This document shows, piece after piece, positions 681-28,479 of a stretch of DNA of 32,236 bases. The stretch is from Micropruina sp. Its GTDB lineage: Bacteria > Actinomycetota > Actinomycetes > Propionibacteriales > Propionibacteriaceae. Position 1 is the stretch's first letter, and each line of letters starts with the position of its first letter. Under the pieces are notes generated by a model. That model did no database searches. It was not told where the DNA came from and saw only the letters and a program-made list of their open reading frames with translations. The DNA is taken from assembly GCF_027492755.1 (NCBI RefSeq), contig NZ_JAPUED010000204.1:1-32236 (forward strand), read 5' to 3'. The translations under genes were made by a program, and so were the position numbers.

Positions 681-762
681 GATTCCGTGAGACCGCTGGG
701 CATCCTCGGCCTGCGCACTTACTCTCGTCGGCACCAGTACGACCATCATGAGGTACCCGACG

Positions 763-1380
763 ATGACCGAAACGAGCGTTTCTCCGGCCACCGCCACTAT
801 CAGGCCCCGACGCAATCTGCGCTGGATCCTGATCGGGGTCCTCGCCATCTGCCTGGGCGGATTGGGGTCGGCGGTCCTCTACACGAGCGTGGCCGACGCC
901 ACCTCGGTGCTGAAGGCCAATCGCACCATCCATCGCGGTGAGTTGATCGGGCCGACCGACCTGGGACCGGTGAGCCTCGGCAGCCACCTCGGCGTCGAGA
1001 CGGTGCCGGCGGAGCGGGCCGCTGAGTTGATCGGCAAGACCGCGCTGCTCGACTTGTCCGACGGGGCGCTGGTCACCCCCGCCTCCATCGGGGAACCCGA
1101 GGTGGTGCCGGGCTTCTCGCGGCTCGGTCTCAAGCTGGCCCCAGGTCAGGTGCCGGTTTCGGCACTACCGGCGGGAACCTCCGTGGTCTTGGTGCCGATC
1201 ACCACGGGCAACGACGGCAAGTCGGCCGGGTCGGCCTATCGAGCCACCATCGCGGTCGCGCCGGCAAGCCTGGCCGACGGCAGCACGTCGTTGGAGGTGA
1301 TGGTCGCCGACGCCGACAGCGACGAAGTCGCCCGGCTCGCGGCCGCCGGACGACTCGTCGTGGTGAAGCGGGCACTCTGA
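763..1380 (+). CDS. SAF domain protein, CpaB/RcpC-like, first gene of the Tad operon
   Basis: This is a protein of about 205 residues. A basic N-terminus is followed by one membrane segment at about residues 18-40 and an extracytoplasmic SAF-type domain (from about residue 45, ANRTIHRGELIGPTDL). SAF domains of this kind occur in CpaB/RcpC, the periplasmic assembly factor of Tad pili. In a monoderm the protein would be anchored in the membrane with the domain in the wall space. I chose ATG 763 because GAGG (750-753) lies about 9 nt upstream. An in-frame ATG at 748 has no visible ribosome site and would itself contain that motif. The stop overlaps the next start (TGATG at 1378-1382), which suggests coupled translation. 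The identification rests on the SAF pattern plus context. Confidence 0.8.
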   Translation: MTETSVSPATATIRPRRNLRWILIGVLAICLGGLGSAVLYTSVADATSVLKANRTIHRGELIGPTDLGPVSLGSHLGVETVPAERAAELIGKTALLDLSDGALVTPASIGEPEVVPGFSRLGLKLAPGQVPVSALPAGTSVVLVPITTGNDGKSAGSAYRATIAVAPASLADGSTSLEVMVADADSDEVARLAAAGRLVVVKRAL

Positions 1381-2147
1381 TGTCCATCGTGGTGCTGACC
1401 TCGGCGGGCAATGCGCCGGGCGTGACCACGACGGCTCTCGGGCTCGCCTTGACCTGGCCGCGTCCGGTGCTGCTGGTGGACGCCGACCGCACCCCCACCC
1501 AGGCCGTCCTTGCTGGCTATCTGCGCGGTGAACACCCTGGCCAGCGCGGTTTCGGCCGGTTGCTGCAGGCCGCTCGCGAACGGCGTCCGATGGCGGAGAT
1601 GCTCGACGGCGAAACCATCGAACTGCCGCCGCTGCTCGAGACCGACACCCCGGCCAGGTTCCTGCAGGGCTTCCCGCATCCGGGTGTGGTCGGGCTGTTC
1701 GGTTCGGCCTGGCCGGAACTGATGGCGGCTCTCGCCGAATGGCCGGGCGACGTCCTGATCGACGCCGGACGGGTGGGTGCCGAGGGCCTGCCAGTTCCGC
1801 TCACCCAACGGGCCGACCTGGTGCTGATGGTGACCGGGACGTCGCTGGTCGCGTTGGCGGGGCTGCGTCTCTACCTCGGGGGAGTGCGCGACGCCGCCGG
1901 CGAGACGGCGCTGCTGCTGGTCGGCAGCGGACGGCCCTACGGCCGGGCCGAGGTGCAGGGCCAGTTCGCGATCACGATCGCGGGCGAGGTGACCCACGCG
2001 CCGGCGCAGGCCGCGGTCCTCAGCGACGGCGCACCGCGTCCGCGGCGGTTCGCCGACTCGGCCTACGTGCGCAGCCTGCGCCAGGCCGCCGGCTCGATCG
2101 CCGGCCGGCTGGAGGCGTCCCGTGAGCTGATCGGAACCCGCCGATGA
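1380..2147 (+). CDS. CpaE/ParA-like ATPase with degenerate P-loop, Tad pilus locus
   Basis: The protein has 255 residues and a MinD/ParA-type fold: an N-terminal strand and loop (VLTSAGNAPGVTTTALGLAL), then LLVDADRTPTQ, the usual Walker A' region. CpaE-like proteins of this family help localise or regulate Tad machinery at the membrane. The loop keeps the glycines and threonines, but neither signature lysine of the deviant Walker A (KGGxGKT) is visible between residues 8 and 18. ATP hydrolysis may therefore be altered or lost. Such loops occur in actinobacterial Tad loci as far as I recall, so this is probably a lineage trait, not damage. Its stop overlaps the next start by ATGA (2144-2147). 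Confidence 0.8.
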   Translation: MSIVVLTSAGNAPGVTTTALGLALTWPRPVLLVDADRTPTQAVLAGYLRGEHPGQRGFGRLLQAARERRPMAEMLDGETIELPPLLETDTPARFLQGFPHPGVVGLFGSAWPELMAALAEWPGDVLIDAGRVGAEGLPVPLTQRADLVLMVTGTSLVALAGLRLYLGGVRDAAGETALLLVGSGRPYGRAEVQGQFAITIAGEVTHAPAQAAVLSDGAPRPRRFADSAYVRSLRQAAGSIAGRLEASRELIGTRR

Positions 2148-3607
2148 CGAAGCTGACCACGATTCCGCTGTGGCAGAACCTGCCCTTCGAAACCACGGTG
2201 CCCGCCGAGCGGCTGCCCGGACGGCGCCCGCGCAGTGCCGAGTCGCCCGATTGGGAGGACACCTGCCCCAGTTCGGCGCCGTCCGAAACGCCGGCCGGGC
2301 TCGACTGGAGCCTGGTGGTGGTGTTGCGCCGGAAGGCGTCCGAACTGATCACCCGCGAACTCGCCGAGTACGCCGACGAGCACGGCACCGCGATGCCCGA
2401 CGTGGACCGCCGGTTGCTCGGGCGGTCCCTGGTCCGCCAAGTGGTGCGCGATCACGCCGAGGATCTGTCGGCCAATGGGCAGGCACTGTGGCCGATCTCG
2501 CTGGAACACGCCTACGCCGAGGGTGTCGAGAACGCCATCTTCGGCTACGGACGGCTGCAGCCGCTGTTCGAGATTCCCGGCGCGGAGAACATCGAGATCC
2601 ACGGCCACGACTCGGTGATGGTGCAGTTCGGTGACGGACACCGTGAGCAGCGATCGCCGGTGGCCGATTCGGACCAGGAGTTGGTCGAGGCCATCCGTTT
2701 CCTGGGTGAGTCGGTGTCGCCGGCCCGGCCGTTCGACGATGCACACCCGACCATGACCCTGGCGTTGGGGGACCGTTTCCGGCTGCACGCGATCGGCTTC
2801 GGACTGTCCTATCGGCCGTCGATCACGATCCGGCAGCACATCCTCACCGACGTGTCGCTGAAGGACCTGGTGGCCACCGGCATGCTGCCCGACGAGGTGG
2901 GCCGACTGCTGCATTCGGCGGTGATGGCACGCAAATCGATCGTGGTTTCCGGCGATCAGGGCGCCGGCAAAACCACGTTGTTGCGGGCGTTGATCGAGGC
3001 GATCCCCGAGAACGAGCGGTTCGGAACACTCGAGACCGACTACGAGCTACTCACCCATCTGCGGCCGAACCGGCGCAACATGGTGGCCCTACAGGCCAAG
3101 GTGGGGCTGGGGGAACATCAAGACGGACGCCGGCTCGGCGAGTACACGGTGGCCGATCTGATTCCCGAGGCGCTGCGGCAGAACCTGTCCCGGCTGATCG
3201 TCGGCGAGGTGCGCGGCTCAGAGGCCGGCGCGATGTTTGAGGCGATGCAGTCCGGAGCGGGAACTTTGAGTACCACCCACTCGCATTCGGCGGCGTCCAC
3301 GATGGACCGGCTGGCCTCCCGGGTTGCCCAGGGCGGCGTGCTGAGCGTCGACGAGGCCTACCGTCAGATCGCGCACCACATCCATCTCCTTGTCTATGTG
3401 CGGCTGACCGACGACACCTGGCGTGGCGGCCGCCGCACCCGCCTGGTCGCCGAGATTCGGCAGCTCACCGGCGGCATCGAGGCCGGACGTCCGGTCACCC
3501 AGCTGGTCTATGCCGCGCCGACCGCCACGTCTCCTGCGGTGTTCCACCCAGAGCCGGTGTTCGCTGCGGAACTGGCCGAGTTCGACGAGGCCTGGGATCG
3601 GTCATGA
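2144..3607 (+). CDS. tadA: Tad pilus assembly/secretion ATPase (CpaF/TadA family)
   Basis: The 487-residue protein is the hexameric motor ATPase of the Tad system, a type II/IV secretion GspE relative that powers pilus extension and retraction at the inner face of the membrane. A family-specific N-terminal domain (about 60-255) includes the FGYGRLQPLFEIPGAENIEI segment. The Walker A loop GDQGAGKTT has its lysine at residue 276, and a Walker B-like segment follows (RLIVGEVRG). The His-box stretch GTLSTTHSHSA is also present. All key motifs are intact. The start overlaps the CpaE-like gene and the stop overlaps tadB (ATGA at 3604-3607). This is the most secure identification in the operon. Confidence 0.95.
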   Translation: MTKLTTIPLWQNLPFETTVPAERLPGRRPRSAESPDWEDTCPSSAPSETPAGLDWSLVVVLRRKASELITRELAEYADEHGTAMPDVDRRLLGRSLVRQVVRDHAEDLSANGQALWPISLEHAYAEGVENAIFGYGRLQPLFEIPGAENIEIHGHDSVMVQFGDGHREQRSPVADSDQELVEAIRFLGESVSPARPFDDAHPTMTLALGDRFRLHAIGFGLSYRPSITIRQHILTDVSLKDLVATGMLPDEVGRLLHSAVMARKSIVVSGDQGAGKTTLLRALIEAIPENERFGTLETDYELLTHLRPNRRNMVALQAKVGLGEHQDGRRLGEYTVADLIPEALRQNLSRLIVGEVRGSEAGAMFEAMQSGAGTLSTTHSHSAASTMDRLASRVAQGGVLSVDEAYRQIAHHIHLLVYVRLTDDTWRGGRRTRLVAEIRQLTGGIEAGRPVTQLVYAAPTATSPAVFHPEPVFAAELAEFDEAWDRS

Positions 3608-4458
3608 GCGCGGTGTTGGCCGGTCTGCTCGGTGCCCTCCTGATCGGCGGGGTGGTGGTGGTCGTCGTCGGAGTGCGGCGGCGTCCGGTGGAGCCGGTGC
3701 GCAGCGGCAGATTCGGCGGCTCGCTGAGCGATCGACTGCTTCCGCTGTTGCGCGCGTACGGGCTACGACTGGCCATCGGGGCGATCGCCGGCATCGGGTT
3801 CGCCGTAGTCACCGGCATGTCGGTGATGGTGCTCGTGGTCCCGATCGCGGTGGTCGGCCTGCCGATTCTGCTGAGCGCGCCCCCGAATCGCGACATCGAG
3901 ATGCTGGAGGCGCTCGATCGCTGGGTGCGTGGCCTGGCAGCGACCATTCCGACCGGGCGTTCGATCACGGACGCCATCCGGGTGTCCGTGCGCAACGCCC
4001 CGGCAGTGCTCTCCGCGCCGCTGGCGCTGCTGGTGGCCCGGCTCGACGAACGCTGGACGGCACCCGAGGCGCTGCGGGCGATGGCCGACGAGTTGGACTC
4101 GGTCGATGCCGACGCAGTGCTGGCTGCGCTCGCCCTGGCCGCCGAACGGGGTGGCACCGGTGCGACCGCCACCCTGCACGCGCTCGCCGATTCCATCCAG
4201 GACCGGCTCAAGGCACAACGCGAGATCGAGACCGAGCGCGCGAAACCGCGCATCGTCGTGCGGCAGGTGACGGTGGTGACAGTGCTCGCGCTCGCGGCGG
4301 CGCTACTGTTCGGCCGCGAGTTCTTCGCGCCCTACTCGACGCCGACCGGGCAGATCATCTTGGTGTCGCTGCTCGCGCTGTACGTGGCATCGCTGCTGAT
4401 GCTGCGCCGAATGACGATGCCACGCCGCCGCGACCGGATCCTACGGAGCCTTCGATGA
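3604..4458 (+). CDS. tadB: TadB-like inner-membrane platform protein (T2SF domain)
   Basis: The protein has 284 residues. A hydrophobic segment lies at the N-terminus (about 4-23), a hydrophobic pair at about 55-95, and a cytoplasmic helical T2SF/GspF-like domain at about 95-215 (RWVRGLAATIPTGRSITDAI). Two further membrane segments follow at about 220-265. TadB and TadC form the membrane platform that transmits force from TadA to the pilin pool. The gene sits directly between tadA and tadC, overlapping each by four bases (ATGA at 3604 and 4455). The assignment follows from order, topology and the T2SF-like core. Confidence 0.9.
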   Translation: MSAVLAGLLGALLIGGVVVVVVGVRRRPVEPVRSGRFGGSLSDRLLPLLRAYGLRLAIGAIAGIGFAVVTGMSVMVLVVPIAVVGLPILLSAPPNRDIEMLEALDRWVRGLAATIPTGRSITDAIRVSVRNAPAVLSAPLALLVARLDERWTAPEALRAMADELDSVDADAVLAALALAAERGGTGATATLHALADSIQDRLKAQREIETERAKPRIVVRQVTVVTVLALAAALLFGREFFAPYSTPTGQIILVSLLALYVASLLMLRRMTMPRRRDRILRSLR

Positions 4459-5333
4459 CCGGGCTGTGGGTGGCGATCGGTTCCGGGGTCTTGCTCGCCG
4501 CCGGACTCTGGGCTCTGGCGGGCTACTTCGTGCCGGCACATCCGCGGTTGGCCGACACCCTGCGCGTGCTCGACGGACGGGTGGAGCCCCAGCCGTCATC
4601 CCCTGTCGATGGCCCGGATCGGCTGGGTGCCTGGGTGCGCCGCCGCATTCCGGGACCACTCGACGGCCGGATCGGTCGCCAGCTTCAGCTTCGCGGCATC
4701 GGGCTCGACAGGTTCTACACCTACAAGGCGCTCTCGGCGCTGGCCGGGTTCGCCCTGCCCACCCTGGTCGGTGTTGTTCTGCTGCTGACCAGTGGTGACT
4801 CGCTGATCTTCCCGCTGATCGTCGCCGTGCTACTGGGGTTGATCGGGTTCTTCCTCCCCGACATCGTGATCGGACGCCGCGCGGTAGCCACCGCGTCCGA
4901 CGCGACCGAGGCGCTGCTCACCTTCTTCGACCTGGTCACCCTGGAGCGGCTGGCGAACTCGAGCGCTACCCAGTCCTTGCATGCCGCAGCCGCGGTGTCT
5001 GATCAGGCGGTCTTCATGGCCATCCGGGACTCGCTGCAGCGTTCCCGGCTTGAACAGCGAGCGCCGTTCAACGAGTTGAAGCGCCTGGGTGGCGAACTCG
5101 ACTTGCCGGCGCTGTGTGACGTCGCCGACGTGATGAAGCTCGACGACTCGGGTGCTTCGCTGTCCGACGCGCTGCGGGCACGGGTCAAGGAGTTGCGCGA
5201 CGCGCACCTGACCAAGGCGAAGGTTGAGGCCTCGGCCATCTCAGAGCGGATGACCTTCCTGATGGTCATCCCCAGCCTGATCTTCGGGCTGTTGTTCCTG
5301 GTTCCACCCCTGCTCAGGTTGCTGAGCACATGA
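4455..5333 (+). CDS. tadC: TadC-like inner-membrane platform protein (T2SF domain)
   Basis: The protein has 292 residues. A hydrophobic segment is at about 5-25 and two are at about 95-140 (FALPTLVGVVLLL, LIVAVLLGLIGFFLP). A soluble T2SF-type helical domain follows (DATEALLTFFDLVTLERLANS through about 255), and the C-terminal membrane segment is LIFGLLFLVPPLLRLL. It is the second platform subunit of the Tad apparatus. The frame stays open far upstream to 3423, but that part overlaps tadA and tadB in another frame. The ATG at 4455, forming an ATGA overlap with the tadB stop, is the real start. The gene for the major pilin follows after 24 bases. Confidence 0.9.
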   Translation: MTGLWVAIGSGVLLAAGLWALAGYFVPAHPRLADTLRVLDGRVEPQPSSPVDGPDRLGAWVRRRIPGPLDGRIGRQLQLRGIGLDRFYTYKALSALAGFALPTLVGVVLLLTSGDSLIFPLIVAVLLGLIGFFLPDIVIGRRAVATASDATEALLTFFDLVTLERLANSSATQSLHAAAAVSDQAVFMAIRDSLQRSRLEQRAPFNELKRLGGELDLPALCDVADVMKLDDSGASLSDALRARVKELRDAHLTKAKVEASAISERMTFLMVIPSLIFGLLFLVPPLLRLLST

Positions 5334-5357
5334 CTTCCACCATGAAGGAGTACCACC

Positions 5358-5534
5358 ATGTCCATCCTGCACACCCTGATCGGGTTCCTGCTCAGCCCGC
5401 CGCGACGCGACGAGAAGGGCCTGTCCCAATCCACCGAGAACGTGCTGCTGCTGGCCGGAGCGGTCGGCGTTGCGGCGGCGATCGTCCTGGTGGTGAAGGC
5501 GTTCGTGGAAAAGAACCTGGGTCCGCTGAAATGA
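5358..5534 (+). CDS. Flp-like major pilin precursor, 58 residues
   Basis: This is a short gene between tadC and the TadE-like genes, preceded by a strong ribosome site (AAGGAG at 5345-5350, 7-nt spacer). The protein has a short N-terminal leader with basic residues (PPRRDEK), then KG-LSQSTEN, then a single hydrophobic helix (VLLLAGAVGVAAAIVLVV) and a short polar end (KAFVEKNLGPLK). This is the layout of Flp pilins: a leader cleaved after glycine (here G21), a nearby glutamate (E27), and one assembly helix. The glutamate sits at +6 instead of the usual +5. It should be the pilus subunit, cut by a TadV/CpaA-type peptidase that is not encoded here. The stop overlaps the next ATG (5531-5534). Strong translation would suit a major subunit. 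Confidence 0.8.
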   Translation: MSILHTLIGFLLSPPRRDEKGLSQSTENVLLLAGAVGVAAAIVLVVKAFVEKNLGPLK

Positions 5535-5890
5535 GTGAGCGCGGGGTCGCGGAGTCCACCCAGTGGGCGCTGCTGATCCCCGTGCTGATGCTGGTGGTGC
5601 TCGGCACCATCCAGGCCGGAGTCTGGCTGCACGGACGCAATGTGGCGTCCCAGGCGGCGTCCGCGGTGGCCGAGCAGGTCGCCTGGGGACGCGGTTCCGA
5701 CGCCGAGGCGTCCGCGATGGGCCGCCGGATCGGCGCGGCCGGCGGGCTGACCGGAGTCGACGTCCGGGTGGAGCGACAGGCACGCAACGTCCGGGTGGTG
5801 GTGACCGCACACGCGCCGCTGATCTTCGATCTCGGTCTGGGCAACGTCACCGAGCATGCGGTGATGCCGTTGGAACGGGTCGGCCCATGA
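5531..5890 (+). CDS. TadE-like minor pilin / pseudopilin 1
   Basis: The protein has 119 residues: MSERG, then VAESTQWALLIPVLML and a single N-terminal membrane helix (about 9-30), followed by an extracytoplasmic domain. TadE-family proteins look like this and are processed as pseudopilins by the same peptidase as Flp. The leader is only about five residues long. The stretch after the glycine (VAESTQ) aligns with LSQSTE in the adjacent pilin, with glutamine where the pilin has its glutamate. The glutamate at +3 is an atypical position. The ATG overlaps the pilin stop (ATGA at 5531) and the stop overlaps the next ATG (5887), so all three small pilin-like genes are coupled. Confidence 0.8.
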   Translation: MSERGVAESTQWALLIPVLMLVVLGTIQAGVWLHGRNVASQAASAVAEQVAWGRGSDAEASAMGRRIGAAGGLTGVDVRVERQARNVRVVVTAHAPLIFDLGLGNVTEHAVMPLERVGP

Positions 5891-6327
5891 GTTCAGACCC
5901 ACGCACGGCGAGCGGCGAACGAGGTGCCGCAGCCCTGGAATTCGTCCTGATCGTGCCCGCGCTCGGCCTGCTGATCTCGATGATGATCGGCTCCGCCCGG
6001 ATCTGGCAGGCACACACGATCGTGGAGCAGATCGCCGGGACGGCCTCACGGGCCGCCTCGATGGCGCGGACGCCGTCCGAGGCGCGGGCGGCGGCTGACG
6101 ACATCGTGCGTTATCAGGCCGCTACCCGTGGGTTGAGCTGTTCGTCATTGCGGGTCGACACCGACCTGACCGGCTTCCAGATCCCGGTCGGGCAGCCGGC
6201 CAGGGTGAGCAGCCAGGTCGCCTGCACCGTGCCGCTGTCCGACCTGATCGTTCCCGGCTGGCCGGGTAGCTGGACGGTGACCGCCGAGGCCGACTCGGTG
6301 CTGGATCGCTATCGAAGGAGAGGCTGA
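5887..6327 (+). CDS. TadE-like minor pilin / pseudopilin 2
   Basis: The protein has 146 residues. The processing region ERG-AAALEFVLIVPAL is classical: cleavage after glycine, glutamate at +5 and a hydrophobic helix of about 20 residues. The remaining roughly 110 residues form a small extracytoplasmic domain with two cysteines (in LSCSS and VACTV) that could form a disulfide. TadE/TadF-type proteins are minor pilus components or assembly factors. The gene overlaps the preceding one by ATGA (5887-5890) and is followed after a single base by the LysM gene, whose ribosome site (GAAGGAG at 6314-6320) lies within this coding region. Confidence 0.85.
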   Translation: MSSDPRTASGERGAAALEFVLIVPALGLLISMMIGSARIWQAHTIVEQIAGTASRAASMARTPSEARAAADDIVRYQAATRGLSCSSLRVDTDLTGFQIPVGQPARVSSQVACTVPLSDLIVPGWPGSWTVTAEADSVLDRYRRRG

Positions 6328-6328
6328 G

Positions 6329-9163
6329 ATGACTCGCTTGCGTGCCGTGGCCGCTGCGTTGTTGCTGCTGACGATCGTCGGCGGTGTGCCGGTAGCCCTG
6401 TGGCTCTGGGGGGTATCGCCGCTCCGCCTCGCTGACCTGGCGCGTCCCGACGATGGTTCGGCGGTGCTGGCCGGCCTCACCGTCGCCGGTTGGTTGGCCT
6501 GGGCGGCCTTCGTGCTCTCCGTGCTGGCAGAGGCCGTCAACCTCATCGGACGCCGGTCGTCGCCGCTCCGCATCCCGCTGCTGGGAGGGTTCCAGTCACT
6601 GGTGGGCGCACTGGTGGTCGCGGTGTTGTCCGCCACCGCCGCGCCGGCCATGGCTGCCGTCCCTGCGGTCCAACCGACCGGTACGAAGACGGCGGTGGGT
6701 CTGCCCGCCGAAGAGGACGACTCGAGGGATGTCGTCGACGAGACGACGAGCTATCGGGTGCGTCCCGGCGATGATCTGTGGAGCGTGGCCGAGCAGCTGC
6801 TGGGCCAGGGCAGCCGGTGGCGGCTGCTGGCCGACGCGAATCCCGCTCTGCTGGCGAACCCGACCGTCGACCTGACCCCCGGGGTCCGGCTGGTGGTGCC
6901 TGAGCTGCCGGACGAGCCGGACGTCGCGGCACCGGAAACCGGAGCACGCCGGGCGCTCGCGAGACCCGAACAGCGGCGAGCGGCGTCCCCGCTGACGGTC
7001 GTGGTGAAGCGCGGCGACACGTTGAGCGGGCTTGCCGAGGAGCATCTGGGAGCGGCCGCCAAGTGGCCACGGATCTTCCGGGCCAACAAGGATCGGATCA
7101 AGGATCCGGACGCGATCGACGTCGGTTGGCAGCTGGTGATCCCGGCAAGAGCGGCTGCGGCACCCGAACCCGGCCGGCATCGTCCGGTACGGAAACAGAA
7201 CCGCCTCCCACAAGGCCAATCGATTCCACAGACGCAGCAGCCCGGCGAGCCCACAGCGCCCGCGCCGGAGGCGCAGCCAACTCCTGATGGCACCCCCCAG
7301 ACCTCGGCGGCCACCGCGTCCGGGTCCGGCTGGTCGCTCGTCGGCGGGTTGTCCGGTGCGGCGGCGGCGATGATTCTCGTCGGGCTGGGTCTGAACCGGC
7401 TCGATCAGCTGCGGGCGCGTCCGCTGGGTCGGCGGATCAACCATCCGCCGGTGGATCTGCGACGCTACGAGACCGCGCTGGGCCGACGCGAACGACCGGA
7501 CACGACAGCCCTGTTGGAGACGGCACTGCGCGCACTCGGAGCCTGGGCGCACGCGGCCGGCCGGCCGTTGCCGCGACTCGCGGTGGCCCGCATCGACGGC
7601 GGCGGGGTGAGTTTCGAGTGGGAGACCGAGCCGGCCTTCGATCCGCCGTCCGGCTTCCGCCGCGTGGCGGGCTGCTGGCGGCTGACCAACGCCGCCGCCG
7701 ACAAGCTGCCCGCTTCGGCGCACCCGGTGCCCTTCCCCGCGCTGATCACGGTCGGCCGGGAGTCCGATGGCAATTGGCTGATGATCGACCTGGAAGCGCG
7801 GTCGCCGCTGGCGCTGGACGGGCCACGGAACCTGCGGCACGCGGCGGCCGCCGCGATGGCAGTGGAGCTGTCCTGTTCGCCCTGGGCCTCGGAACTCAGC
7901 CTGACGGTGGTCGGAGGCGACGAGATGTTCGTCCGAGCAGCCTGCCCCGAACTGGTCCGGTTCTACGCCGAACCCGACGAGGCTCTCGACGGCCTAGCGG
8001 CCTTGGTCGCGGAGCGGGCCGCCGACGACTCGCCGACGGCGCTGCTGCGCGTCGATCCGGAACGGGCCGAGGCCGGTGCCGCGCAGATCGTCATCGTCGC
8101 CGATGAGCCGAGCGAAGCCGTCCGGGCCCGTCTCGACGAGATCGTCGGCGATGCCGATCTGGGGGTGGCCGGCGTGGTCGCCGGAACGGGTGAGTCGGCG
8201 CTGGTGCTGACCGGTAGCGACGATGAGCCCGGCGCCCGGCTCGACCCGGAGCGCTGCGAGCTTCGCCCGCACCTGATCCCGGCGCACACCCGGGCGGCGA
8301 TCGGCACGATCTTCGCGGCCACCGAGCAGCCAGCCGGGAAAGCGCCCTGGTGGTCGGAGGCGGACAACGTCCGAGCCCTGGTGCCGCGACGGGATTCCGT
8401 CCGGATCGGCGAGGCAGCGCCCGAACTGATCGAACATCCCTATCTGAAGCTGATCGGGCCGATCGAACTGCTGGGTGCGGCCGGAGAAGCACCCGCGCGT
8501 TCCCGCCGGCAGTGCGAGGAATACTGCGCGTGGCTGCTGGAGAACCCGCGGAGTACCGCGACCCGGATGACCACCGAACTCGTGGTGGCCGAGAGCACCC
8601 GGCGGTCGAATATGTCGCGGCTGCGTTCCTGGCTGGGTTCGGACGCCACAGGTGCGCCCTACCTGCCCGAGGCGTACTCCGGTCGGATCGAACTGCATCC
8701 CGGTGTCGAGTCGGACTGGCAGCGGGTGCAGGTGCTGACCGCGCCCGGCCTGAACCGGCTGGGCCCGGAGGTGCTGGTCAACGTGTTGGAGTACGTCCGT
8801 GGCGCGCCGCTGGCCGACGCCGCACCGGGGCAATGGCGTTGGGCGGAGGAGTTGCGCACCGATATGGCGTCACTGCTGCGGGACGCCGGTGTGCTGCTCA
8901 CCCGTTGGGCGCTGGAACACAGCGATCTGGACGTCGCCCGCTGGGCTGCCGGACGGGCGCTGTTAGTAGCACCCGAGGACGAGTTGCTGCTGGTCGAGCG
9001 GATCAACACCGAGGTGTTGGCCGGCAACACCGTCGAGGTGCAACGTCTGGTGCGCTGGGTCACCGGCCAGGCCCGCGCACTCGGCGTCGACCTGGCTCCC
9101 GAAACGGTGAATGCCTGCCAGCGGGCGATGGAGGGCCGGACGAGGCCCCGCGCCGCCCGCTGA
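6329..9163 (+). CDS. Membrane protein with two LysM domains and SARP/BTAD-like C-terminus, end of Tad operon
   Basis: The protein has 944 residues. Three hydrophobic segments lie near the N-terminus (about 6-28, 47-72 and 85-108). LysM domain 1 spans about 142-191 (YRVRPGDDLWSVAEQLL) and LysM domain 2 about 222-273 (VVVKRGDTLSGLAEEHL). A Pro/Gln-rich linker follows, then a further membrane segment at about 334-357. The long cytoplasmic part ends in a winged-helix-like region (about 708-770) and a helical region resembling the bacterial transcriptional activator domain of SARP regulators (about 795-935, LRTDMASLLRDAGVLL). LysM domains bind peptidoglycan, so the protein could link the wall to the cytoplasmic face of the pilus machine or to signalling. 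It starts one base after the TadE-like stop with a good ribosome site. DNA binding is not shown. Confidence 0.8.
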   Translation: MTRLRAVAAALLLLTIVGGVPVALWLWGVSPLRLADLARPDDGSAVLAGLTVAGWLAWAAFVLSVLAEAVNLIGRRSSPLRIPLLGGFQSLVGALVVAVLSATAAPAMAAVPAVQPTGTKTAVGLPAEEDDSRDVVDETTSYRVRPGDDLWSVAEQLLGQGSRWRLLADANPALLANPTVDLTPGVRLVVPELPDEPDVAAPETGARRALARPEQRRAASPLTVVVKRGDTLSGLAEEHLGAAAKWPRIFRANKDRIKDPDAIDVGWQLVIPARAAAAPEPGRHRPVRKQNRLPQGQSIPQTQQPGEPTAPAPEAQPTPDGTPQTSAATASGSGWSLVGGLSGAAAAMILVGLGLNRLDQLRARPLGRRINHPPVDLRRYETALGRRERPDTTALLETALRALGAWAHAAGRPLPRLAVARIDGGGVSFEWETEPAFDPPSGFRRVAGCWRLTNAAADKLPASAHPVPFPALITVGRESDGNWLMIDLEARSPLALDGPRNLRHAAAAAMAVELSCSPWASELSLTVVGGDEMFVRAACPELVRFYAEPDEALDGLAALVAERAADDSPTALLRVDPERAEAGAAQIVIVADEPSEAVRARLDEIVGDADLGVAGVVAGTGESALVLTGSDDEPGARLDPERCELRPHLIPAHTRAAIGTIFAATEQPAGKAPWWSEADNVRALVPRRDSVRIGEAAPELIEHPYLKLIGPIELLGAAGEAPARSRRQCEEYCAWLLENPRSTATRMTTELVVAESTRRSNMSRLRSWLGSDATGAPYLPEAYSGRIELHPGVESDWQRVQVLTAPGLNRLGPEVLVNVLEYVRGAPLADAAPGQWRWAEELRTDMASLLRDAGVLLTRWALEHSDLDVARWAAGRALLVAPEDELLLVERINTEVLAGNTVEVQRLVRWVTGQARALGVDLAPETVNACQRAMEGRTRPRAAR

Positions 9164-25197: not shown

Positions 25198-25314
25198 GGC
25201 CTCTCACTGAGCGAGACTCCGCGTTGATCAGCGCTTACGTACTTGTGCCACCTCCGAAACCGTGGTGGAACCGGCACTTCTCGGCGACAACCCGTCCCGA
25301 GAAGGAGCACTCCG

Positions 25315-28300
25315 ATGCTGTGCCGCAAGAGCGTCGCCGAACTCACCGCCGCCGAGAAGGCGGAACTGGTCCAGGCCTTCCTCGACCTGAAGGATCCAGC
25401 CAAATCACCCAGCCGAATACCCGCGGCCGCGACGGCGGTCAGTGCCGCCGGCGGGACGCCGAACCGCTACGACGACTACGTCTGGCTGCACAACACGGTC
25501 GGCTTCGGTGCCCATCGCGGTCCCGCGTTCGGTCCGTGGCATCGCGAGTTCCTGCACCAGCTCGAATACGACCTGCAGGTGGTCAGCGGCAATCACCACC
25601 TGACCATTCCGTACTGGGACTGGATCACCGCCCGCAGCTCGGCCGACGCCGGCTGGCCCTTCACCAATGACCTGCTCGGCGGATTCGGCAATGCCGGACC
25701 CGGTCCGACGACGGGTTACGTCACGTCGGGGCCGTTCGCCGATCCGACCACGTGGCGAATGAACATCCGCCGCGGCGGCGACTCCGACCTGACCCTGAAG
25801 CGGTCCAACGGCATTCCGGCCGCGGGCGACCTGCCTAGCCGGGCGGAAGCGTTGCGCGCCTTCGGCATCGCGGTGCCGAACGGACAGACCTGGCCGGACG
25901 TCTACGACGGCGCGCCCTGGAACGACACTTCCGCGCCGACGAACGCCCAGGTGCTGGCGTCCTTCCGCAAATTCCTGGAACGCGTGCTGCACGACGGCGT
26001 CCACGTCTGGATCGGTGGCGGCTGGGAACTCAACCCGCAGGGCCAGCCCGGTGATGGCGGTCACATGACCTACCCGTCGGTGTCAGTGAACGACCCCGCC
26101 TTCTGGTTGCACCACTGCAACGTCGACCGGCTGTGGTCGATCTGGCAGCGCAAGCTCGGTGCGGCTTCGGAGTTCCAGCCGCAGGCCGGCGGCGCCGCGA
26201 ATAGCGGTCACAACGGTGGCGACACGATGATCAACCTCGGCACGGCCGCCTGGTTCGCCGCGCCGGTGTTCTCGACACCGAACGCCAACGAGGACCATCA
26301 TGCGGTCGGCTACTGGTTCCACAGCGACCTGCCCGAGGTCAGCCTGGACACCCCGTCGGTGTCGTTCGGCTCGGTACCCGAACTGCTCACCACCTTCCAT
26401 CCGGTGCAGTTCACCGTGCGCACCTGCCGCCAGGTCCGCTTCGAACTGACCGGGGTGACCGGTGCCGGCTTCAGCGCCCCGGCCGGGCAGGGCATCGTCA
26501 CCGTCGAGCATGACGACCATGCCGAGACGGTCACTGCGAGCGTCTTCGCGCAGTTCCAGGCCAACGGTCCGATCGGCGTCCCACAAGCGGGGACGGCCAG
26601 CGTGCGGGCCTTCATCGTGGACGACGACGGCTACGACGCCGCCAACCCGGGCGACGAGTACACCCTGGGCAGCTGGGTGGTCGATCTATCCGCCACCCCG
26701 GTCGCCCGGCCGCGCGCCGCGGTCTCGCTGGTGCTGGACCGCTCCGGCTCGATGTGGGCGAACGCGGGCACAGCCGGCTCGCGCTACGACCTGCTCAAGG
26801 AGTCGCTGGCGGTGATCCGCGACGTGATGCGGCCGATCGACGGCGTCGGGGTGGTCACCTTCGACGACCTGACCGCCGTCCTGGACGGGATCACCGAGAT
26901 GGGGCCCGCGCCCACCACGCCCGGCTCCGGACGCGAAGTGCTCGACTCGGCGATCGCCTCACCCGAACTGGAACCGCGCGGCCTGACCGGCATCGGCCAG
27001 GGCATGATCGAAGGTGCCGCCGTACTGGACGCCGAACGCACCGACCCCGCGACGCCCTACGAGCAGTTCGCGCTGTGCGTACTCACCGACGGCAACCAGA
27101 ACCAGTCGCCGGGGGTCACCGACGCGCCGGTGCTGGCCGCCATCGCGCCCTACGCCGACCAGGTGTACGCGATCGGCCTGGGCAGTCCGGGTGGGGTCAG
27201 CGACGCCGTGCTCACCTCGATCTCGCGGTACATGCTGATCACCGGCGACATGACCGCCGCCGAGCGCCGCTTCCGGCTGACCAAGTACTTCATCCAGATC
27301 CTGGCCGGGGTGACCGACACGGCGATCGTCGTCGACCCGCAGGGCGAGCTGGCGATCGGCAGCGAGCACACCGTGCCGTTCCTGCTCGGCGAACTCGATC
27401 ACCAGGTCGACGTGATCGTGCTGTCGCCGCTGGCCCCGCTGCTCGAGGTGGTCCTGGTCGCTCCGGACGGCACCACCATCGACGGCTCGTCGGGCCTGGC
27501 CACCGTGGAGTACCAGGAGAACCTCGACGACGTGCTGTACCGGCTCACCCTGCCGGTGGATCCGCGGATCATGGCCGTCGGCGAGTGGAAGGCGATGATC
27601 GGGCTGCCTCGGGACGCGATCAAGAAGCTGCGCGGCCGCGAGGATCTGCAGGCCCGGCTGGCCCAGCTGCGGGCCAGCGGCACGGTGCCGTACAGCATGA
27701 TCGTGCAGAGCTACTCCGACGTGCACCTGGACGCCGAGATCGCGCCCTCCCTGGCCATCGCCGGCGACAAGTTCGAACTGCGGGCCACGCTGACCATGTT
27801 CGGGCAGCCGTTCACCGGCCGGGCGCGGGTGCTGGCCCGGGTCACCGATCCCGGTGGCGTCGAGACCCTGGTGGCGCTGCGCGGCGCCGGGGACGGCAGC
27901 TTCGGCGGCGCGTTCGCCACCGCCAAGCCGGGCGTCTACTCGGTGCGGTTCACCGCGACCGGCGGTGACCGGCGCACCGTCCAGTTCCAACGCGAGGAGC
28001 TACGGACGGCCGTCGCCTACCGGGCCGAGATCCCGAAGTCGGACGGCCAACCCGAAGACGACAAGCGTCCGGATCGAGGCGACCCGGACAAGCAGAAGGA
28101 GCGCGCGGAACAGCGCCGGAAGGAGGCCGAGGAGATGGGCAAGCACGAGGACCGCGGTGGACCGGTGGTGCGGCGCGGACCGGTGGTGCCGTCCGCCGAC
28201 GAGCCGGGGCTGCTGTCACGTCCGGAAGCCGAACCGATGGAGCCGCACGACCACGGGCAGGCGGAGGAACACGACGAGCACGGACATGAGCACCACGACC

Positions 28301-28479
28301 ATGACTCGATGTTCTTCCAGCCGTGGCGGCTCGGTGCCGACGGCGAGGTGCACGAGGTGCCGCTCGACGAGATGACCCGGGACACCAGCAGTTTCGTGGA
28401 CGGACGCGACCCCGGCATCGGAACCGGCGGCGTCCAGCCGGCCCCGCACGACCACGACGGCGGTGGCCACGAACACTGA
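25315..28479 (+). CDS. Tyrosinase-like copper domain fused to VWA domain and His-rich tail
   Basis: The protein has 1054 residues. A tyrosinase/type-3 copper domain (about 1-320) has CuA histidines H59, H67 and H76 (HNTVGFGAHRGPAFGPWH) and CuB histidines H226 and H230 (HDGVHVW) plus the HH pair 266-267 (WLHHCNVDRLW). A beta-rich segment (about 343-465) follows, then a von Willebrand A domain (about 468-660) with an intact MIDAS start DRSGS (475-479). Further beta or Ig-like segments span about 662-900. A charged, probably disordered linker (about 905-975) leads to a His-rich tail (978-996 and 1044-1054). No signal peptide is visible. Tyrosinases oxidise phenols to quinones. The VWA domain suggests protein-protein or surface binding via a divalent metal, and the tail could load copper in place of a MelC1-type chaperone. 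ATG 25315 follows GAAGGAG by seven bases. Confidence 0.88.
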   Translation: MLCRKSVAELTAAEKAELVQAFLDLKDPAKSPSRIPAAATAVSAAGGTPNRYDDYVWLHNTVGFGAHRGPAFGPWHREFLHQLEYDLQVVSGNHHLTIPYWDWITARSSADAGWPFTNDLLGGFGNAGPGPTTGYVTSGPFADPTTWRMNIRRGGDSDLTLKRSNGIPAAGDLPSRAEALRAFGIAVPNGQTWPDVYDGAPWNDTSAPTNAQVLASFRKFLERVLHDGVHVWIGGGWELNPQGQPGDGGHMTYPSVSVNDPAFWLHHCNVDRLWSIWQRKLGAASEFQPQAGGAANSGHNGGDTMINLGTAAWFAAPVFSTPNANEDHHAVGYWFHSDLPEVSLDTPSVSFGSVPELLTTFHPVQFTVRTCRQVRFELTGVTGAGFSAPAGQGIVTVEHDDHAETVTASVFAQFQANGPIGVPQAGTASVRAFIVDDDGYDAANPGDEYTLGSWVVDLSATPVARPRAAVSLVLDRSGSMWANAGTAGSRYDLLKESLAVIRDVMRPIDGVGVVTFDDLTAVLDGITEMGPAPTTPGSGREVLDSAIASPELEPRGLTGIGQGMIEGAAVLDAERTDPATPYEQFALCVLTDGNQNQSPGVTDAPVLAAIAPYADQVYAIGLGSPGGVSDAVLTSISRYMLITGDMTAAERRFRLTKYFIQILAGVTDTAIVVDPQGELAIGSEHTVPFLLGELDHQVDVIVLSPLAPLLEVVLVAPDGTTIDGSSGLATVEYQENLDDVLYRLTLPVDPRIMAVGEWKAMIGLPRDAIKKLRGREDLQARLAQLRASGTVPYSMIVQSYSDVHLDAEIAPSLAIAGDKFELRATLTMFGQPFTGRARVLARVTDPGGVETLVALRGAGDGSFGGAFATAKPGVYSVRFTATGGDRRTVQFQREELRTAVAYRAEIPKSDGQPEDDKRPDRGDPDKQKERAEQRRKEAEEMGKHEDRGGPVVRRGPVVPSADEPGLLSRPEAEPMEPHDHGQAEEHDEHGHEHHDHDSMFFQPWRLGADGEVHEVPLDEMTRDTSSFVDGRDPGIGTGGVQPAPHDHDGGGHEH

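Follow-up and report, generated by a model that had tools for sequence, protein, structure and literature searches.

The window, a stretch of 32,236 nucleotides from Micropruina sp., contains a gene on its + strand in which a tyrosinase head is followed by a section of four domains (Ig-like, VWA, beta-sandwich and filamin-type Ig), here called the chassis, and by a tail. The gene reached the highest total coding score among the window genes in our own gene caller, and AAGGAG is located at 25302-25307, 7 nt 5' of its ATG. It is flanked by genes for an M3 peptidase, threonine synthase and a two-component system, and the same flanks are kept in a Micropruina MAG, which has about 4.5 kb of additional upstream sequence. 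The following features were assigned:

25315..28479, + strand: whole gene, tyrosinase head, MIDAS chassis and tail (1054 aa plus stop; coding score 327.8)
25315..26214, + strand: type-3 copper (tyrosinase) head, residues 1-300
25489..25542, + strand: CuA ligands H59, H67 and H76 (kept in 111 of the 114 sequences aligned, with gaps in the other three)
25990..26115, + strand: CuB ligands H226, H230 and H267 (His in 114 of 114), with D227 as the first activity-controller position
26335..26703, + strand: Ig-like domain, residues 341-463 (beta strands in the model; within the shared chassis alignment A2)
26716..27318, + strand: VWA domain, residues 468-668
26737..26751, + strand: MIDAS motif DRSGS, residues 475-479 (further ligands T558, 26986-26988, and D592, 27088-27090; all five kept in each of the 298 chassis)
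27322..27717, + strand: beta-sandwich with helical insert, residues 670-801 (model; chassis alignment)
27721..28020, + strand: filamin-type Ig domain, residues 803-902 (A2 profile against filamin-C 7ouu, E 2.3e-11)
28246..28302, + strand: His/Asp/Glu-rich cluster, residues 978-996 (mostly pLDDT <50)
28309..28374, + strand: beta-hairpin in the tail, residues 999-1020, with predicted docking to the tyrosinase head (pLDDT about 90 at 1001-1020, flanks <50)
28444..28476, + strand: C-terminal His-rich end, residues 1044-1054 (pLDDT <50)

The initial annotation had described a protein with six type-3 copper histidines, an intact MIDAS, a tail dense in histidine and a tyrosinase-VWA architecture with Ig-like segments. 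All four observations were borne out, the last by Pfam, relatives and models, and the query contains two Ig-like domains plus one beta-sandwich. An annotation or frame artefact was ruled out by the 298 complete chassis of many sources. A conserved operon partner was also ruled out as an explanation, as other tyrosinase-headed loci have different neighbours, and the phage records searched gave 0 matches and no trace of a phage origin.

The Pfam model Tyrosinase (PF00264) matches residues 49-280 with an E-value of 1.3e-39 (137 bits compared to a cut-off of 22.6), and the model shows the fold of the copper domain. The ligand alignment comprised 114 sequences including the query (7 of 121 proteins, of at most 850 aa, were left out); among the tyrosinase heads listed, the six copper histidines are complete in 161 of 169, the remaining eight showing alignment gaps only. 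At position 227, 85 of the 114 sequences have N and 29 have D, and E222 is kept in 102. E222 is a possible water keeper, and together with D227 after HisB1 it would be compatible with mono- or diphenolase activity; the roles of these positions are explained in PMC11608171. The Streptomyces MelC2 equivalog model (NF047834) was not reached (127 bits, cut-off 450). Judged by sequence, the head is a type-3 copper enzyme that likely oxidises phenols or tyrosines. The tyrosinases of Bacillus megaterium and Streptomyces (MelC2) are described as proteins of about 30 kDa without a chassis, the Streptomyces enzyme working with a separate caddie.

In the query, VWA_2 at residues 472-593 scores 19.1 bits and thus stays below the Pfam cut-off of 27, so the VWA call rests on relatives such as P0139 and P0166, which exceed the cut-off of the profile, on the predicted structure, which has the VWA fold, and on the MIDAS. 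The five MIDAS residues D475, S477, S479, T558 and D592 are invariant in all 298 chassis including the query (9 of 307 proteins with incomplete chassis were left out), even though chassis identity to the query falls to about 33%. The Ig-like domain at 341-463 resembles, by eye, what we take to be an ASH/choice-of-anchor domain. Among PDB entries, the chassis profile gives its best sequence match to the mussel proximal thread matrix protein 1 (PTMP1, 4cn8; E 2.7e-15), a collagen-binding protein with two VWA-like domains (PMC4754843). However, PTMP1 has no enzyme head, and likeness in the VWA alone is uninformative on a common function.

Full-length relatives occur in Actinomycetota, Vicinamibacterales, Desulfobacterales, Myxococcota, Bacteroidota, Proteobacteria and one haloarchaeon. 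The same Ig-VWA-sandwich-Ig chassis carries, instead of tyrosinase, a LodA/GoxA quinoprotein oxidase or a peptidase of the M64, S8 or M14 type. Among the 307 proteins listed, 169 have a tyrosinase head, 123 LodA/GoxA, five S8, four M64 and two M14, and four remained unassigned; as each protein list holds the best 120 matches, these counts are not natural frequencies. On the chassis tree (unassigned rows left out), the five head types need five changes, the minimum possible being four, and the tyrosinase label needs four, three of them forced by starred branches. S8 heads fall in two places set by starred branches, and two regions of the tree hold tyrosinase heads, from which we read that heads have been swapped. 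In the Georgenia protein P0071 the VWA part is lost, while the head, the first Ig domain and the tail motif are retained. A gene for a LodB-like flavoprotein directly follows the LodA-headed gene in all four such loci read (by Pfam for three). In overlapping samples of Actinobacterial genomes, each including the source genome, the chassis profile matched with E 1e-30 or better in 3 of 396 genomes at the level of the phylum, 4 of 394 of the class and 12 of 293 of the order; two further genomes listed as the same genus gave no match at this threshold. The weaker matches in the phylum sample span mainly the VWA part.

The relatives are mostly annotated as "tyrosinase family protein", "VWA domain-containing protein", "LodA/GoxA family CTQ-dependent oxidase" or "hypothetical protein", and our literature search found no characterised member of the chassis family. 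The nearest report notes LodA-like proteins with a vWA domain in Amycolatopsis vancoresmycina and Cryptosporangium arvum (PMC4417212); its passages on these proteins give no function and mention neither tyrosinase nor peptidase heads. They combine a LodA/GoxA head with a VWA, and the LodA-headed proteins found here share the chassis of the query; the two named proteins themselves are likened to it by description, not by alignment. They differ from the query in their CTQ quinoprotein head, usually with a LodB flavoprotein as partner. The earlier statement that no enzyme of such architecture is described agrees with the literature found, apart from these two LodA-like proteins. The presumed rarity, in turn, did not survive the search for architecture and phylogenetic spread, which gave many phyla plus a haloarchaeon, and a VWA made for the tyrosinase is contradicted by the chassis being common to LodA/GoxA, M64, S8 and M14 heads.

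The chassis may be a structural or oligomerising scaffold only, with heads that act on small molecules such as phenols and free amino acids, and with the MIDAS as a structural metal site that has no partner. This would agree with tyrosinases oxidising free phenols (PMC9454253), with the amino-acid oxidase activity described for LodA/GoxA proteins (PMC4417212) and with the loci read, where no neighbour encodes an obvious partner. However, we consider it unlikely, as the complete conservation of the MIDAS down to about 33% identity goes beyond the need of a scaffold and three of the head classes are peptidases. A chassis that targets proteins fits the heads known so far, which act mostly on proteins or amino acids. 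A precedent for how an enzyme head and a partner-binding MIDAS might work together is CLCA, a self-cleaving metalloprotease that engages a protein partner through the MIDAS of its VWA (PMC11231702). The chassis profile matches the VWA of CLCA1 with E 1.6e-9, and three relatives match TIGR00868 weakly (E 2e-6 to 6e-5, far below the cut-off). CLCA differs in being an animal protein of the secretory pathway with an HEXXH head, where the query has a tyrosinase. We know of no CLCA protein with a tyrosinase head.

The tail differs strongly between head types. Eight of the 19 residues of the cluster 978-996 are His. In 20,000 shuffles of the protein this was not reached once; with 30-residue windows, 12 of 20,000 shuffles did so. 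Where a head could be assigned, tyrosinase is the only type that goes with His-rich tails (48 of 163, compared to 0 of 132 for other heads: 0 of 122 LodA, 0 of 10 peptidase; 8 of 307 proteins with incomplete chassis were left out). Three of the four proteins without assigned head also have His-rich tails, and these may be fragments of tyrosinase-headed proteins. The median tail length after the CX4C hairpin is 108 aa under tyrosinase and 12 aa under LodA; most LodA-headed proteins have no tail, with 26 of 122 reaching 100 aa or more. A model of the tail motif of the close clade matched 24 of 146 tails, seeds included, compared to 0 of 44 (tails below 25 aa were left out and unassigned proteins counted with the tyrosinase-headed ones); P0044, which has no assigned head, is among the 24. 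Neither a long tail nor the motif can be essential to all members, since 25 of 163 tyrosinase-headed proteins have tails shorter than 100 aa and the motif is confined to those 24 tails, and the His-rich tail, being a minority trait, is no general requirement. A tyrosinase that stands alone, with a copper-donating tail of its own and a VWA evolved to serve it, would agree with the shuffling result for 19-residue windows and with the lack of His-rich tails under the other assigned heads. We regard this as very improbable: the architecture is widespread, the chassis is common to four other enzyme classes, 115 of the 163 tyrosinase-headed members lack a His-rich tail, and rarity and VWA origin are contradicted already.

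AlphaFold models of the query and of P0036 (the proteins are 47% identical) both show a confident hairpin in an otherwise disordered tail. In the query model, alignments reach residues 1008-1020 in 10 of 50 rows, all of them hemocyanins and PPOs; the octopus hemocyanin is aligned up to its residue 2872 in one model and 2875 in the other, and the alignment ends of hemocyanin 9kzl differ between the two (358 and 384). Based on pLDDT and these alignment ranges, the hairpin is predicted to sit on the tyrosinase head at the place of the hemocyanin C-terminal beta-domain. As judged from the hemocyanin and eukaryotic PPO rows, this predicted place would be similar to that of the C-terminal element in hemocyanin units and in the tyrosinases of Verrucomicrobium spinosum and Burkholderia thailandensis. 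Zymogen (type II) tyrosinases carry a C-terminal shield over the copper site, and both models would put the hairpin near there. Those shields are described as a folded, beta-rich domain of about 17 kDa directly after the head, whereas the query would use a hairpin of about 20 residues that folds back from a position some 700 residues beyond the head. Docking of the hairpin would tether the His cluster 978-996 beside the head. The idea of a built-in copper donor can thus be recast as a predicted docked hairpin with the His cluster adjacent, and it gains support from tyrosinase being the sole assigned head type with His-rich tails, which lie next to a hairpin that is predicted to dock.

A different role of the tail is suggested by the N-terminus. 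As the initial annotation had noted with puzzlement, a signal peptide is missing: of the 104 sequences aligned (the query among them), 102 have no more than five residues before the conserved R4 and hence no room for one. In a rough heuristic, which missed one of two positive controls, 0 of 115 LodA-headed starts were signal-like; among tyrosinase-headed starts 7 of 161 passed, and by eye each of these hits lies on the conserved first helix. The tail might thus be an export or anchoring signal of tyrosinase-headed members rather than a copper or lid element, and K/R-rich last 15 residues are indeed found in 83 of 163 tyrosinase-headed compared to 6 of 122 LodA-headed proteins. Yet a confident short hairpin within a disordered tail, seen in two models, suggests packing within the chain, and the LodA-headed proteins, mostly without tail, do not show signal-like starts in that rough test either. 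We therefore rate an export tail as quite improbable. Judged from the sequences, the missing signal peptide argues against a surface role via the usual routes. VWA domains with a MIDAS exist in cytoplasmic proteins too.

No caddie gene of the MelC1 type, which in caddie-dependent (type I) bacterial tyrosinases lies directly upstream, adjoins the window gene, as stated before, and no match above cut-off to MelC1 (PF06236) was obtained in its own genome, an 85%-complete MAG. The underlying premise that bacterial tyrosinases need a separate caddie is too strict, since the Bacillus megaterium enzyme is described to work without one and that of Verrucomicrobium spinosum to use its C-terminal domain instead. 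Two tail-less tyrosinases have small genes directly upstream, encoding 84 aa in Microvirga (one-base overlap) and 66 aa in Haloarcula (directly adjacent). By eye, both products resemble a reduced MelC1. They matched no Pfam family and passed no NCBIfam model. Against four MelC1-like sequences, the Haloarcula protein beat 1000 of 1000 shuffles, while 106 of 1000 shuffles reached the score of the Microvirga protein; hhalign with both together gave a best probability of 15%. A 69-aa ORF that ends 126 bases upstream on contig L004 was rejected as MelC1-like, as 431 of 500 shuffles reached its score. The rule of either a tail or a small coupled gene, exactly one of them, fits six of the seven loci read: four have a tail and no coupled small gene (the window, the Micropruina locus on contigs L003 and L004, L073 and L080), two have the small gene and no tail, and one, the tail-less L077, has neither. 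With only seven loci, mutual exclusion cannot be claimed.

We therefore favour, with a probability of roughly 0.55, that the gene encodes a tyrosinase head on a conserved MIDAS chassis, in which the VWA holds a protein target, the head oxidises it and the tail hairpin, as predicted, folds back on the head. The MIDAS would bind an acidic residue of the partner via a divalent metal, and the substrates would be protein tyrosines or phenols near the bound partner. The hairpin may serve as an internal lid or caddie, and copper may be fed to the head from the His cluster 978-996.

New here is a family with one chassis under several enzymes, which is apparently uncharacterised. More tentatively, and at somewhat less than even odds, it may represent a prokaryotic "tool holder" for targeted protein modification with exchangeable chemistry: one MIDAS chassis (298 copies, all five ligands kept) that has taken up and swapped five or more unrelated enzymes (tyrosinase, LodA/GoxA, M64, S8, M14), and whose oxidase heads bring their maturation device, LodB for LodA and, for tyrosinase, a small coupled protein or a His-rich tail with a hairpin capping the copper site. 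If true, scattered annotations would become one modular system that brings protein-acting chemistries to a target. Three questions would then be open to direct test: which ligand a bacterial MIDAS on an enzyme binds, whether a short tail is enough to give a tyrosinase both a lid and a source of copper, and by what means enzymes that are often extracellular work, or exit the cell, when they lack a signal peptide. For protein cross-linking, a tyrosinase or lysine-oxidase holder directed at a chosen target would be useful.

The tyrosinase-VWA protein encoded in the window is built from an N-terminal enzyme domain (the head), a following chassis of Ig-like, VWA, beta-sandwich and filamin-type Ig domains, and a C-terminal tail:

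25315-28479, plus strand: gene of the 1054-residue query protein
residues 1-300: tyrosinase head, with the copper ligands H59, H67, H76 (CuA) and H226, H230, H267 (CuB)
residues D475, S477, S479, T558, D592: MIDAS, the metal-binding motif of the VWA domain
residues 978-996 and 999-1020: His cluster and hairpin of the tail

This protein is not a singleton. The full-length query matched 231 proteins, and when the best 120 of these were aligned together with the query, 114 of the 121 sequences, all longer than 850 aa, aligned through head and chassis. Relatives occur in several bacterial phyla and in the archaeon Haloarcula. Among the matches listed were proteins from Micropruina, Pseudonocardiaceae, Vicinamibacterales, Desulfobacterales, Pricia (Bacteroidota), Micromonospora, Nitrosomonas, Myxococcota and Defluviicoccus; those of Microvirga and Haloarcula are plasmid-borne. 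The CuB histidines are conserved in all 114 aligned sequences and the CuA histidines in 111, with gaps in the other three. In one Micropruina relative (P0061), the reading frame leaves the family sequence before the VWA domain. In a Micropruina MAG, about 4.5 kb separate an M3 peptidase from the tyrosinase gene (L004:3809-8325), where the matching stretches of the window lie about 80 bases apart. The window's own genome also encodes a second tyrosinase (C107, L051:7764-9191; about 475 aa by our gene caller) without chassis. At 748-6327 and 6329-9163, the window contains a Tad-pilus/type II secretion-like cluster (SAF domain, T2SSE ATPase, T2SSF, TadE-like) followed by a LysM protein.

Searches with query residues 465-900 alone, and then with the chassis of one relative, showed that the same chassis carries other heads. 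These were LodA/GoxA (PF17990, PF18417), M64 peptidase (PF09471) and S8 subtilase (PF00082), all borne out by our own Pfam scan of four example proteins, and an M14 carboxypeptidase (PF00246, E 2.8e-52) on a chassis ORF of a Caballeronia plasmid. The 307 proteins among the matches listed comprised 169 tyrosinase, 123 LodA, five S8, four M64 and two M14 heads and four proteins without an assigned head, counts that are shaped by the queries and the matches listed and are not natural frequencies. Chassis identity to the query drops to about 33%; the MIDAS is complete in all five residues in 298 of 298 complete chassis. One genome (G995; L076, L077) encodes three chassis proteins, one each headed by S8, M14 and tyrosinase, the M14 one stopping inside the chassis. 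Another (L050:6689-9832, genome G352) encodes a chassis-like protein whose N-terminal part has no assigned family and in which several ASH-like repeats can be made out by eye.

In a tree of 68 chassis, built by a quick method, tyrosinase heads were split between a main clade and a second one that also contains S8 and M14 heads, and S8 heads occurred at two starred places. With the two rows without assigned head omitted, the five head types require five changes (minimum possible, four) and the tyrosinase label four, three of them forced by starred branches; P0295 forms a long branch, and its omission leaves the count the same.

Some heads are accompanied by genes of their own. At four loci of one family of the query's order (f116, Kribbella-like), a LodB-like FAD-binding gene (Pfam for three of the four) lies within a few bases downstream of the LodA-headed gene, an arrangement also seen in known lod operons (available part of PMC4417212). 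P0227 combines a LodA head and chassis with a downstream LodB-like segment in one predicted ORF; over 257 columns, this segment shares 41% identity with one LodB-like gene of these loci. Its N-terminal third is missing, so that an artefact of assembly or reading frame is possible besides a genuine fusion. Directly upstream of tail-less tyrosinase-headed genes, small genes occur in Microvirga (L047:8747-9001, 84 aa) and Haloarcula (L048:8800-9000, 66 aa), whose likeness to MelC1 is weak at best, and in the Haloarcula gene only. The tyrosinase-headed locus L077 of G995 has neither a tail nor a small upstream gene.

In 80 of 114 aligned tyrosinase-headed proteins, the last Ig domain is followed by a helical hairpin that contains two CX4C motifs and is absent from the query's clade; a looser twin-Cys pattern occurs in 109/122 LodA-headed and 118/163 tyrosinase-headed proteins. 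As the CX4C hairpin is also found under other heads, it is part of the chassis. Beyond it, the median length is 108 aa under tyrosinase compared to 12 aa under LodA heads. Tails with at least five His within 30 aa occurred in 48/163 tyrosinase-headed proteins, 0/122 with LodA heads, 0/10 with peptidase heads and 3/4 without assigned head. Length is not the sole explanation, since among tails of at least 100 aa under tyrosinase, LodA or peptidase heads, His-rich ones were still confined to tyrosinase (48/138, 0/26 and 0/4, respectively). A K/R-rich C-terminal stretch was present in 83/163 tyrosinase-headed and 6/122 LodA-headed proteins.

The query's His cluster (978-996) is followed by the short element MFFQPWRLGADGEVHEVPLDEM (999-1020). 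Seven elements of this kind served as seeds for a profile, which at 8 bits or more matched 24 of the 146 tails of proteins with a tyrosinase head or no assigned head (seeds included), none of 44 tails under other heads and no shuffled tail. The query model reaches a pLDDT of about 90 at residues 1001-1020, flanked by stretches below 50. A confident hairpin, at 1039-1050, is likewise present in the model of P0036 (pLDDT 86.7, pTM 0.76), a relative that is 47% identical and has a tail of different sequence. The copper site of hemocyanin is shielded by a C-terminal beta-domain. In structural alignments to hemocyanin units, the aligned range extended to the tail hairpin in both models, ending (query and P0036 model, respectively) at residues 2872 and 2875 in octopus, 2873 and 2874 in keyhole limpet and 2889 and 2889 in squid, positions that lie in that beta-domain. 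In abalone hemocyanin (9kzl), the end residue differs between the two models (358 and 384). The query alignment also reached the hairpin in eukaryotic PPOs with a C-terminal domain, none of which was among the 50 rows for P0036. We read the aligned ranges of these predicted models as docking of the hairpin on the head at the shield's place, a claim that stops short of plugging the copper site. By sequence and Pfam, P0071 from Georgenia no longer has the VWA part but retains head, first Ig domain and tail element, an indication that the tail serves the head.

Bacterial tyrosinases come in three known layouts, with a caddie, with a C-terminal domain or bare (available parts of PMC9454253 and PMC10526336), and the tyrosinase-chassis family does not match any of these. 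In 2015, a vWA domain was recorded in two LodA-like proteins, with no function given in the part available (PMC4417212). In the literature covered, mostly that outside subscription journals, we found no described bacterial tyrosinase-VWA enzyme, in agreement with the initial annotation, and no account of a common chassis. Each domain is already known, and the modular system is, as far as could be found, undescribed.

The lack of a signal peptide, already found puzzling in the initial annotation, extends to the family: in 102 of 104 aligned tyrosinase-headed sequences, the conserved start leaves no room for one. Such proteins may leave the cell by a different route or on lysis, or may act within it.

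CLCA engages a partner protein through the MIDAS of its VWA domain (available part of PMC11231702). By analogy, binding of a protein is the likely role of the chassis, which would set the enzyme upon it. The query head would then oxidize tyrosine or phenols on or near the bound partner, while the tail hairpin may hold the head latent or assist copper loading and the His cluster could act as a local copper store. The family would pair a constant part, the metal-ion adhesion site, with a variable part that provides the chemistry.
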